From positions 1 through 21,844 of IMG/VR virus record IMGVR_UViG_3300037549_000066: a DNA stretch of 21,844 nt; one strand, given 5' to 3'. Below are positions 4,432 through 16,984 of this stretch, one piece after another. The translations under genes and the position numbers were made by a program. The DNA is from a virus. Numbering within the stretch: the first letter of the stretch is position 1; every line of letters begins with the position of its first letter. The notes under the pieces are model-generated. The model was given only the letters and a program-made list of their open reading frames with translations, was not told the DNA's origin and did no database searches.

Positions 4432-6177
4432 GTGAAAGAATTACGCCCGTATCAGCAGGAAGCTGTTACAGAGTGTTGGAAAGCTCTTGTAGCATCAGAT
4501 GAACCCGTTTTATTAATGGCAAGTGTAGGCTCAGGTAAAAGCCTGATGCTTGCCGATATCCTCTTGAGAATGCAAAAGCTCGGCAAACGTGCTCTATGTC
4601 TTGTTAATAACGCTGAATTGGTACGCAATAACTGTGCCACTTTTATTGAGCAAGGAGGGGAAGCGTCTATTTACTGCGCGGCTCTAAAGTGCAAAGATAG
4701 CAGTGCGCCTATAGTGTTCGGCACTCCTCAAACCATATTAAACGGAATTAATAAAAATGAACCGATTTCACATATCAAATTCAATATTATCGTGGTTGAT
4801 GAAGCTCACGCTATTAATTACCTTGATCATCGGAGCATATTTGTTCGGTTATTGCGACACTACAAACAAGAATACCCTCTCATGCGAGTACTTGGAGCTA
4901 CAGGAACAAACTTCCGATTCAAAGGAACAGAAATCGTGGGTAGTGGGTGTTTGTTCCGAACTCAAGTCGGAAATATTACTACTGAACAATTAATCAAAGA
5001 CCATTATTTGATTGATCCAAATTTTGAGGTTGATAAAGAGCTTGTAATCGACTTCACAAAGGTCAAGGTTAAGCGTAACGGGAAGTTCGACCAAAAGGAG
5101 CTTGAACAGGTCATCACTGAAAGCGCACGCCTCACAGAGCTTATTTGCAAGCAAATAATCCATATCATGGAATCTCAAAAACGTTTTGGGATATTTATCT
5201 TTGCAACGACCAAAAAACACGCATTTGAAATATTAAGCCATTTACCGGAAAATGAATCAGCAATAATCTTAGGGGAAACACCGCAAGATGAAAGGACTAC
5301 TATACTGGATAAGGCGCGAAAGGGTGAGATTAAGTATCTTGTTAACATTGCTATTATTTCTGTTGGTGTCGATGTTCCAGCTTATGACACTCTCGCTTAT
5401 TTACGACCAACAGAAAGTCTTGTCCTTCTTGTTCAAACAATGGGAAGAGCCTTACGATTGTCACCCACCACGGATAAAGTAGATGCTCTTGTCTTGGATT
5501 TTGCTGGCAATCTTGAGCGTCACCGCGATTGGGATAATCCTATTTTGCTAAAAGCTTTGCGTCAGACTATTGACCATGATAAACCACGGCCTATGATATG
5601 TCCTAGGTGCTTGGCTGGAAATACTGAGAACGCGAGGCGGTGCGTTGGCGAGAGAATATATAATCAGAATGGAAAAGTCACGCAAATTCGCTGCGATTAT
5701 TATTTTGAATTTAAGGAGTGTACCGGGTGCGGCATTCAAAATGACATTACGAGCCGTCATTGCCGCTCATGCCATTGTGAGCTTATCGATCCGAATAAAA
5801 AGCTTACCTTGGACACGACCACCGAGGATTTAAAAGAATTAGAAGTTCTTCATGCAAGCTATAATATAGCTGATACACAAACGGCCTTTCGCATTAGCTG
5901 TTCTTACCGGTGCCGTGATAATGAGGGTAAAATTGCTACCTTCTATGAAAATTACACGCCATCCAGTGATAAGGCTCGTCATGTGTTCTATGGGCAATTC
6001 ATTAAAAAACACTGCAATACACCATCCGATTGGTACCCATACATTAGCGAACGTTCCAAAATGGAACAAATGCTTGAGCATGTTAATACACCATCAAAGA
6101 TAATGTTGAAATTTGATAATACCGGATATAGAATCAAACGGAAAGTTTTTGAAAATAGCTTATCTGCCATTGCGTAG
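4432..6177 (+). CDS. DEAH-box superfamily 2 helicase with Cys-rich C-terminus
   Basis: This 581-aa GTG-started protein is an SF2 DNA helicase. It has a Q-motif-like RPYQQEAV (residues 5-12), Walker A ASVGSGKS (30-37), Walker B/motif II DEAH (123-126), motif III-like GATGTNFR (155-162), and motif VI QTMGRALR (335-342) preceded by VGVDVPAYD. The layout resembles SSL2/RadD-type helicases of phages. After residue 388 come nine cysteines in CPRC (390, 393), C404, C421, CTGC (430, 433) and CRSCHC (444, 447, 449). These suggest two zinc ribbons that could bind DNA. The last 125 residues have no recognised fold. As no DnaB-type helicase is seen here, it may unwind the phage origin or support recombination (inference). 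It ends the rightward early operon. Confidence 0.9.
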   Translation: MKELRPYQQEAVTECWKALVASDEPVLLMASVGSGKSLMLADILLRMQKLGKRALCLVNNAELVRNNCATFIEQGGEASIYCAALKCKDSSAPIVFGTPQTILNGINKNEPISHIKFNIIVVDEAHAINYLDHRSIFVRLLRHYKQEYPLMRVLGATGTNFRFKGTEIVGSGCLFRTQVGNITTEQLIKDHYLIDPNFEVDKELVIDFTKVKVKRNGKFDQKELEQVITESARLTELICKQIIHIMESQKRFGIFIFATTKKHAFEILSHLPENESAIILGETPQDERTTILDKARKGEIKYLVNIAIISVGVDVPAYDTLAYLRPTESLVLLVQTMGRALRLSPTTDKVDALVLDFAGNLERHRDWDNPILLKALRQTIDHDKPRPMICPRCLAGNTENARRCVGERIYNQNGKVTQIRCDYYFEFKECTGCGIQNDITSRHCRSCHCELIDPNKKLTLDTTTEDLKELEVLHASYNIADTQTAFRISCSYRCRDNEGKIATFYENYTPSSDKARHVFYGQFIKKHCNTPSDWYPYISERSKMEQMLEHVNTPSKIMLKFDNTGYRIKRKVFENSLSAIA

Positions 6178-6198
6178 ACAAAGTAACGGGTTCGTTTT

Positions 6199-6373
6199 GG
6201 CGTTCCCAGCGATATTTTTCCGGCTGCAACGCCCTTGATTGGCGTTTAGGAATCTTGTACAGAGTGTCAGCCAGTAATGTACAAGGCGGAGCTTCCCCGT
6301 TAATCAGGGCTAAACGATTCTAGCCCGGCAGGAATGATAAATCGTGACAGCGTGGAGAGACACGCCTTTATCA
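6199..6373 (+). ncRNA. Candidate structured RNA or leader with at least four perfect hairpins
   Basis: This gene-free interval after the helicase holds consecutive perfect stems. They are GGCGTT 6199-6204 with AACGCC 6228-6233 (with CAGC/GCTG nested inside), CTTGTACA 6254-6261 with TGTACAAG 6278-6285, GGGCTA 6307-6312 with TAGCCC 6321-6326, and TGATAAA 6335-6341 with TTTATCA 6367-6373 enclosing GCGTG 6350-6354 and CACGC 6361-6365. A second GGCGTT at 6241-6246 and a second ACGCC at 6362-6366 allow rival pairings, as in RNA switches. The last stem ends at the AAGGA of the 55-aa gene. I do not recognise a known RNA family. Strand is inferred from the flanking plus-strand genes. Confidence 0.6.
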
Positions 6374-6383
6374 AGGATGAGAA

Positions 6384-6551
6384 ATGAAAGAATTTAATCT
6401 TATTCAGGAATTAGAAAAACTTTATTGGTACATGCAAGGTGCTCATTCAGTTTGCGATCATGAAAACTCAAGCGCAACTTTTCATCAAGCATGTCATAAA
6501 TTAGATGAGATAATTAATTCAATACCTAAAGACAAAGAAGCCAACGCATAA
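6384..6551 (+). CDS. Hypothetical 55-aa protein downstream of the structured RNA
   Basis: An AAGGA (6373-6377) lies 6 bases before the ATG. The frame encodes a compact helical protein (MKEFNLIQELEKLYWYMQGA at the start, DEIINSIPKDKEANA at the end). It contains His21, Cys24, His26, His34, Cys37 and His38, a spacing that could bind a metal, though no known zinc-finger pattern fits exactly. It is the last plus-strand gene before the strands converge. Its Shine-Dalgarno site directly follows the strong hairpin of the putative RNA, so its translation may be controlled by it. Function unknown. Confidence 0.6.
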   Translation: MKEFNLIQELEKLYWYMQGAHSVCDHENSSATFHQACHKLDEIINSIPKDKEANA

Positions 6552-6559
6552 CGCTGGCT
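6539..6559 (-). terminator. Weak hairpin terminator at the convergent gene ends
   Basis: AGCCA (6539-6543) pairs with TGGCT (6555-6559). One mismatch follows, then a further CG/CG pair closes a 5-base loop. Read leftward, the stem is followed by the T-rich TCTTTGTCTTT, fitting a terminator for the 166-aa gene. Read rightward there is no T-run. A second short inverted repeat, TCTATC-ATA-GATAGA, lies at 6568-6582. Support is moderate only. Confidence 0.35.
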
Positions 6560-6586
6560 CAACTCCTTCTATCATAGATAGATGAG

Positions 6587-7087
6587 TTATTCCTCTTCTT
6601 CCTCATCACGGCATTTCTTGGGAAGTTTTTTACCTTTAGTTGCTTTTTTAGTTGCTTTCAAGAATTCTTTTTTTGCTTCTTTGTCGAAGAATATCGTATC
6701 AGCAATAAAGTTAAGCGCAGTTTCAAGCAATAATATTTTAGTTTCCAGTCGAGTAAATTCTTTATATATCTTACTTTGGTTATCAAGGGAAATTCCATCC
6801 ACCGGGCTATACTTATCTTTTTTGATTGCTACCAACATCTCGGCAGTAATCCCAAACACTTTCATAATCTCACCATCAGATTTTTTTTGACTCAAAAACA
6901 TTTGAATCTTTTTTAAATCATCCAAACCGGGTTGCTGATTATTGTTGTCTGCTATTTGATTTTTACGCCATTCTGATTGTACAATCTCCGGCTTCTTGGA
7001 GTTTGGCTTCCAACTATCAAGCGTAACCTCTTCCTTGTCACTTCCGTCAATGCTGCACGGATCGAATTCATAACTTCTATTCCCCAT
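6587..7087 (-). CDS. Hypothetical 166-aa protein with possible helix-turn-helix
   Basis: It starts at ATG with AAGGAG 7 bases upstream. The first 50 residues are polar and probably disordered (MGNRSYEFDPCSIDGSDKEE). Residues about 60-85 (FLSQKKSDGEIMKVFGITAE) resemble a helix-turn-helix of the kind seen in phage small terminase and regulator proteins. A helical segment with LETKILLLETALNFIADTIF follows, then a very basic Lys-rich patch and a final run of acidic residues. The length is close to P22-type small terminases, but no large terminase lies next to it, so that idea is weak. It is the last leftward gene, with its own upstream repeat-rich control region. Confidence 0.7.
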   Translation of the reverse strand: MGNRSYEFDPCSIDGSDKEEVTLDSWKPNSKKPEIVQSEWRKNQIADNNNQQPGLDDLKKIQMFLSQKKSDGEIMKVFGITAEMLVAIKKDKYSPVDGISLDNQSKIYKEFTRLETKILLLETALNFIADTIFFDKEAKKEFLKATKKATKGKKLPKKCRDEEEEE

Positions 7088-16324: not shown

Positions 16325-16984
16325 TTAATCAATATTTGCCCATGTCATGCCGCAACTTAATCGACTAATACTTAGGACAGATACGCCCATCATGGACGCT
16401 ATTTTTTTATGCCTGACTTTTTCTTGGAGCAATTTTTTTACTTCTTTTACCTTTTCCACTGACAAAGTATGTGTACGGTTCATATTTTGTTTGGCTCTTG
16501 TAATCCAAGTGCAATTATCAGGCTCATATCCTTTATTATTATCAATTCTTTCTATGGTAAGTCCATCTACATAACCATTATTTAATGCCCACTGATGAAA
16601 TAATTCAGCTGAGTTAAGCCATTCATCACAAACTTTTATGCCCTTTTCCCCATAGTCCTTATATCTGGCACATTTTTTATTATGACATCTATAAATCATT
16701 CCTCGCCTAATATTTAAAATTCTATCTCTATTTGGGTTTGACCAAGCAATTACGCCTTTACCTTTTCTGCTCTCACACTTACAAACTTTATCTCTATTTT
16801 TGAATAATGAATACTGACCTTCATATTCCAGAGCACATAATTTACATTTCACACGTATATATCTTTTTTTATTCTTAGATTTCTCTGTAGGAAATCTCAT
16901 TCCAAGCTCTTCTATAACCGTAAAATTGTGGAAATCTAATTGTATTTCTTTCCAAGCTCCTGTTTTGACTTTATTATCATTCAT
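16325..16984 (-). CDS. HNH homing-type endonuclease
   Basis: This 219-aa protein has the layout of free-standing HNH homing endonucleases of phages. The conserved block is YRCHNKKCARYKDYGEKGI (about residues 98-116), VCDEW and GLTIERIDNNKGYEPDNCTW (141-160) followed by ITRAKQ. The N-terminal CKLC (47-50) and CKC (68-70) pairs may bind zinc, and residues 186-210 (KKIASMMGVSVLSISRLSCG) form a helix-turn-helix for target binding. It interrupts a run of structural genes, so it is probably a mobile passenger. Codon use appears more AT-rich than in the fibre genes. Its Shine-Dalgarno (GTGAG-like) is weak, and a long hairpin precedes it. Confidence 0.87.
   Translation of the reverse strand: MNDNKVKTGAWKEIQLDFHNFTVIEELGMRFPTEKSKNKKRYIRVKCKLCALEYEGQYSLFKNRDKVCKCESRKGKGVIAWSNPNRDRILNIRRGMIYRCHNKKCARYKDYGEKGIKVCDEWLNSAELFHQWALNNGYVDGLTIERIDNNKGYEPDNCTWITRAKQNMNRTHTLSVEKVKEVKKLLQEKVRHKKIASMMGVSVLSISRLSCGMTWANID

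Follow-up and report, generated by a model that had tools for sequence, protein, structure and literature searches.

A composite structured RNA behind a phage helicase gene, independent of its flanking genes

The DNA analysed here, hereafter the window, comprises the 21,844 nucleotides of IMG/VR virus record IMGVR_UViG_3300037549_000066, in which the end of a helicase gene and the start of a 55-aa gene enclose a non-coding gap. The sequence-only reading had placed in this gap, at positions 6199 to 6373, a multi-hairpin RNA of no known class that would switch the 55-aa gene. The locus therefore raises three questions: is there a structured RNA, where does it begin and end, and does it act on the gene behind it or in some other way? 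Folding energy did not answer the first of these. The minimum free energy was -54.1 kcal/mol, as against a shuffled mean of -49.2 (z = -1.24; 21 of 200 shuffles were as good), and on neither strand was the folding energy significant. Because folding energy does not set the element apart from shuffled sequence, the question had to be taken to its relatives.

The viral contigs hold 49 relatives of the helicase. Homologues of the element, which we call RNA A, lie downstream of the helicase in contigs L002, L006 (identical in L007 and L008), L009, L012 and L050, and three more, in L051, L055 and L059 (truncated), came from pattern scans. With the window, this makes 9 distinct copies on 11 contigs, all of them metagenomic viral contigs, perhaps from soil, in the collections searched, and the copies are 76-92% identical to that of the window. 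Most of the helicase relatives are without RNA A, which is therefore an accessory element. Further pattern scans of the viral contigs with other conserved segments gave no new full copy and one new copy of the first two hairpins (P1-P2, in L102); a candidate in L061 was a chance match. Among genome contigs there were 0 matches to the pseudoknot motif and 20 chance matches to a looser motif, none of which was matched by the covariance model. RNA A was unmatched in phage and plasmid records; the sole match, to phage records, was that of the L002 tRNA region.

No Rfam family matched RNA A, either at the gathering score or at a relaxed threshold; this includes group I and group II introns, self-cleaving ribozymes, tRNA and tmRNA. 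ARAGORN reported 0 tRNA or tmRNA genes in the window. The earlier judgement by eye that the element is no tRNA, tmRNA or group I intron core thus agrees with these searches. No published description was found in a literature search that covered few subscription papers or preprints. RNA A appears to be an RNA family without an Rfam counterpart, within a recognised but unexplained category of phage RNAs.

Eight of the 9 copies were aligned and used to build a covariance model, R1; the ninth, L059, was left out of it. The structure has six hairpins (P1 to P6) and two pseudoknots, 49 pairs in all, with internal loops in P1 and P2 (Table 1). Its ends are the limits of the conserved alignment and not mapped transcript ends. 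The stems of the sequence-only reading are present, as P3, P4, P5 and P6, while both pseudoknots had escaped it. Its starting point of 6199 is halfway through P2. The conserved element begins about 44 nt earlier, at 6155, and its first ~23 nt are shared with the end of the helicase gene, whose stop codon (TAG, 6175-6177) sits within the 3' strand of the P1 inner stem.

Table 1. Features of the window, and what follows RNA A in related contigs
Feature	Position	Strand	Description
Phage helicase ORF	4432-6177	+	DEAD/ResIII type; upstream of RNA A
RNA A, whole structured RNA	6155-6365	+	~211 nt; R1 249.5 bits in the window
Hairpin P1	6158-6184	+	Outer stem GCTT/AAGT, internal loop AT/GACA, inner stem CTGC/GTAG
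Hairpin P2	6188-6207	+	GGG..CCC with inner CGT/GCG; inner pairs covary
A-proper (P3-P6 and two pseudoknots)	6208-6365	+	Cassette present or absent behind P1-P2
Pseudoknot A	6222-6226 with 6268-6272	+	GGCTG with CAGCC in P4 loop; 100% of cells paired
Hairpin P3	6228-6246	+	AACGCC-CTTGATT-GGCGTT; double changes in 4 of 6 pairs
Hairpin P4	6254-6285	+	8 bp, CTTGTACA/TGTACAAG; double changes in 6 of 8 pairs
Hairpin P5	6307-6326	+	6 bp, GGGCTA/TAGCCC; loop AACGATTC
Pseudoknot B	6314-6319 with 6340-6345	+	ACGATT (P5 loop) with AATCGT; invariant in all copies
Hairpin P6	6350-6365	+	GCGTG-GAGAGA-CACGC
55-aa ORF	6384-6551	+	Downstream; Shine-Dalgarno AAGGA at 6374-6378; no family match
Second P1-P2 module	6529-6590	-	R2 57.1 bits; right after stop of minus-strand ORF 6587-7087
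L002 after RNA A			C-E-tRNA-Tyr-F array
L006 after RNA A			D-E-F
L012 after RNA A			B
L050 after RNA A			C, tRNA-like RNA, F
L051 after RNA A			tRNA-Gln and P1-P2 module
L055 after RNA A			P1-P2 module and apparent tRNA split by HNH ORF
L059 after RNA A			Unnamed hairpin, then B

The stems change their letters and keep their pairing. P1 occurs with CUU/AAG, CUG/CAG and CUC/GAG, together with changes in its inner stem; relatives have CTGGT..ACCAG or TGC..GCA in P3; and P5 is GGGCTA/TAGCCC in some copies and GCGCCA/TGGCGC in others. P6, read by eye, occurs as GCGTG/CACGC, GGGT/ACCC and GCCG/CGGC, with 82.8% pairing in an imperfect alignment. The P4 loop, of 16 nt, is conserved (GAGTGTCAGCCAGTAA) and holds one strand of pseudoknot A, whose partners vary in step: GGCTG/CAGCC, GGTTG/CAACC and GGTG/CACC, with a double change at one pair, and with the last type representing a paired one-base deletion on both strands. 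Pseudoknot B is compatible with the alignment and, since it is invariant, gives no covariation. RNAalifold proposed a longer helix, GCGAUAUUUUUCC with GGAAAGAUAAAUCG, which is broken at several positions in L002, L050, L051 and L055 and also conflicts with pseudoknot B; it was not adopted. Most positions of the unpaired core are invariant among copies, a pattern that suits a folded functional core and would not be expected in an antisense sRNA, and no reading frame conserved across the copies was found.

In the 8 aligned copies, 96.8% of the cells of the 49 proposed pairs are paired, and 20 pairs have double changes, in 47 cells. Shuffled alignments gave 16.1 ± 2.8 double-change cells, and none of 500 shuffles reached the observed values; when the partners were slid by 1-3 columns, pairing fell to 34-43%. 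A tree-based null, in which the observed substitutions were replayed on a FastTree tree, gave 4.6 ± 2.4 double-change cells, with a maximum of 13 in 400. The covariation case rests on the whole structure and not on single pairs, whose significance is weak with 8 sequences (the best pair is expected 0.2 times per tree-based null alignment). Because the structure was chosen on the same 8 sequences that were scored, the copy outside the alignment matters. L059 forms P4 with new letters, ATCATGCA/TGCATGAT as against CTTGTACA/TGTACAAG in the window, and cmsearch marked no broken pair in its P4, P5 or P6.

These results bear on one alternative, that the element is a young DNA repeat or insertion which the copies have by common descent, and which pairs by chance and has no function as RNA. 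The copies are indeed few and close to the window in sequence, and the folding energy would suit such a repeat. The compensatory changes, however, exceed both the shuffles and the tree-based null, and the covariation of P4 in L059, outside the model, adds to a body of covariation that already contradicts this explanation, which we regard as highly improbable. Of the sequence-only reading, the claim of an RNA thus stands: lack of covariation had been named as what would speak against it, and covariation was found. Its statement that the stems go far beyond chance is upheld by their conservation and not by their folding energy.

The switch is another matter. It was proposed on the basis of two copies each of GGCGT (6199 and 6241) and ACGCC (6229 and 6363), which are present and were thought to allow mutually exclusive pairings. 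The alternative helix, 6199-6204 with 6228-6233, is 71.4% paired in the alignment as against 71.0% in shuffles, shows no double change, and is fully formable only in the window and L002; in six of the eight aligned copies the sequence of P3 differs, so that the alternative cannot form fully there. The first GGCG copy forms the 3' side of P2, a hairpin with covariation of its own. Nor does the final stem abut the Shine-Dalgarno sequence of the 55-aa gene, as had been read: P6 ends about 8 nt before it.

That short distance would nevertheless suit a riboswitch, or a regulator of translation, that controls the 55-aa gene, and in L009, too, a small ORF with its own Shine-Dalgarno sequence stands directly behind RNA A. 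Against such a role, the mutually exclusive pairing is not conserved, and no conserved alternative fold that includes the Shine-Dalgarno sequence was found. A small ORF stands directly behind RNA A only in the window and L009 among the 9 copies; the genes behind it are mutually unrelated and missing in most copies, and in 7 of the 9 (L002, L006, L012, L050, L051, L055 and L059) RNA A is followed first by an RNA or RNA-like module. Because the downstream genes differ and the next feature is so often RNA-like, it is unlikely that RNA A switches the 55-aa gene in cis, and we give this explanation very little weight.

The upstream side is variable too. Before RNA A come the helicase itself (window and L006), an ORF of ~90 aa that stands behind the helicase (L002, L009 and L012), an ORF of 63 aa beside one that resembles a terminase small subunit (L051), or a terminase-small-subunit-like ORF (L055); the two terminase-like assignments were made from sequence and not by family search. 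Neither flanking gene, then, is conserved across copies. A UAG stop or UAG triplet lies immediately 5' of P1 in most other copies. In the window the helicase has ~7 C-terminal residues (NSLSAIA), encoded by P1, beyond the conserved 'GYRIKRKxF' end; at the site where relatives have TAG before P1, the window has an out-of-frame TAG, and the helicase reads through into P1.

RNA A is itself made of two parts. P1-P2 occurs without A-proper in L003, L004, L035 and L102, where other RNA modules or nothing recognisable stand behind it. L050 lacks P2 and retains both P1 and the pseudoknotted part; RNA A is therefore a composite of P1-P2 and a domain of ~160 nt. We built a second model, R2, from 21 copies of P1-P2 (63 model positions, two hairpins), in which P1 is 97.3% paired and 35 double-change cells stand against 10.0 ± 2.3 expected. 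R2 matches 13 of the 49 whole records, with no more than three matches in any of them (of the three in the L004 record, one is weak); the matches lie where operons end or within RNA arrays. In the window two P1-P2 modules face each other, at 6155-6217 on the plus strand and 6590-6529 on the minus strand, the latter overlapping the 3' end of the 55-aa gene. A terminator scan identified the minus-strand P2 as an intrinsic terminator (6560-6538 plus a T-rich tail) with a conserved inner loop.

This link to a terminator favours the main rival to the explanation that we prefer below, namely that P1-P2, perhaps with the whole RNA, is a cis-acting transcription element whose target is RNA polymerase at the end of the last translated gene, either as an antiterminator through the untranslated RNA array or as a terminator or attenuator. 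Nearly all copies of P1-P2 stand directly behind a stop codon, at operon ends and at most 2-3 times per phage, and the put RNA of phage HK022 provides a precedent of like size. On the other side, the P2 inside RNA A has no T-run directly behind it, and neither R1 (only a 4.3-bit fragment) nor R2 (no match at E <= 10) matches the HK022 genome (NC_002166), which carries put. A double-pseudoknot domain of ~160 nt also exceeds what termination needs, and P1-P2 occurs without that domain. We consider a transcription element possible but somewhat doubtful.

What follows RNA A is most often another RNA or an RNA-like module. The modules labelled B to I in Table 1 and here are putative, unclassified RNAs, 55-104 nt long, that have closing stems and in most cases end in -CCA, all read by eye; none of the small RNAs in the arrays had an Rfam match. 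Such arrays lie at 5250-5640 in L002, 4990-5320 in L006, ~3560-3645 in L012, 5100-5560 in L035 and ~1150-1430 in L050. Their RNAs adjoin RNA A or P1-P2 and are divided by short TTAT-like linkers, and several have T-loop-like loops (UGCAACU, UGUAAAU). Module F, of the GGCTCC...GGAGCC type, lies directly downstream of the helicase in L022 (~1990-2080) and L018 (~4720-4780), both without RNA A, and may be more widespread than RNA A.

The L055 neighbourhood contains, at 1360-1780 on the minus strand, an HNH endonuclease ORF apparently inside a tRNA gene, with the 5' acceptor half GGAGCAA before it and the T-arm plus TTGCTCCACCA after it. An HNH endonuclease gene is also found in the window, at 16325-16984 among minus-strand genes. 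The ORF downstream of RNA A in L055, within an apparent split tRNA, would fit a ribozyme or an RNA belonging to a mobile element, with the cassette distribution arising from self-cleavage or homing, and so would the modular presence and absence of RNA A and its compact double-pseudoknot core. We judge this unlikely, given that the other copies have no adjoining endonuclease and that the intron and ribozyme families of Rfam do not match. P1 has a superficial resemblance to a hammerhead; its CUN/NAG pairs covary, which is incompatible with a hammerhead core.

The explanation that we prefer, and to which we give an even chance, is that RNA A is a trans-acting folded non-coding RNA of the phage, made with the operon transcript and released, and not a switch of the next gene. 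The recurrent two-hairpin 3'-UTR module, P1-P2, and the compact double-pseudoknot domain behind it would be transcribed as the tail of the preceding (early) phage operon, along with whatever tRNAs and other small structured RNAs lie there. RNA A would most likely be freed by processing, and as a stable folded RNA it would act in trans, probably with a protein, ribosome or tRNA partner. Its independence of both flanks, its cassette behaviour, its invariant unpaired core and its RNA neighbours fit a folded RNA of this kind, and the exchange or absence of A-proper behind P1-P2 in four contigs also counts in favour. Several observations count against it: the promoter-like match upstream is weak (6106-6134, 10/12), the terminator scan found no consistent terminator after P6, copies are few in the collections searched, and in 2 of the 9 a protein gene follows at once, so that a cis role is possible there.

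More tentatively, tRNAs, the unclassified RNAs B to I and RNA A, arrayed between P1-P2 modules at operon ends, might form a modular phage RNA system in which RNA A is one effector. If so, RNA A could be, for example, a tRNA- or ribosome-binding RNA that alters host translation or protects the phage tRNAs. The neighbouring arrays suggest a larger unannotated RNA repertoire in this one environmental phage group. Annotation centred on proteins misses such RNAs, and part of RNA A is hidden inside the helicase gene.

How does RNA A compare with RNAs already described? Riboswitches with pseudoknotted aptamers resemble it in being compact, with an invariant unpaired core, and in the window RNA A likewise precedes a small ORF; it differs from them in having no conserved downstream gene, no conserved alternative pairing and no Rfam match. 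GP20-a RNA (Rfam RF02991) is the sole phage RNA family with even a chance-level match, to part of P5-P6 (14.9 bits, E = 5.4, against a gathering score of 47.2); P1-P4 and the pseudoknots are not covered, and RNA A is not a member. The put RNA of HK022 is an antitermination RNA of ~70 nt in two stem-loops (PMC9378689). P1-P2 is loosely similar in its size, its two stem-loops and its place on a phage transcript. However, put lies behind early promoters whereas P1-P2 follows stop codons at operon ends, and in RNA A it is followed by ~160 nt of extra structure.

The nearest known kind is the phage RNAs near tRNA islands. GOLLD and ROOL are elaborate RNAs of phages and prophages, found near tRNA islands and of unknown function (PMC12286853). 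Like them, RNA A is phage-encoded, pseudoknotted and, in relatives, near tRNA genes: a tRNA-Tyr in L002 and a tRNA-Gln in L051, although the window itself has no tRNA. Their Rfam models matched neither the window nor 9 related loci, and the architecture of RNA A is a different one. A homo-oligomeric cage made of RNA only is a trait of GOLLD and ROOL. GOLLD is often longer than 800 nt and ROOL is also much larger, as against ~211 nt for RNA A. RNA A adds a family backed by covariation and without an Rfam counterpart to the short list of elaborate phage RNAs, and its small size, with a core of only ~160 nt, makes it far more tractable than GOLLD or ROOL for synthesis, probing and structure determination.
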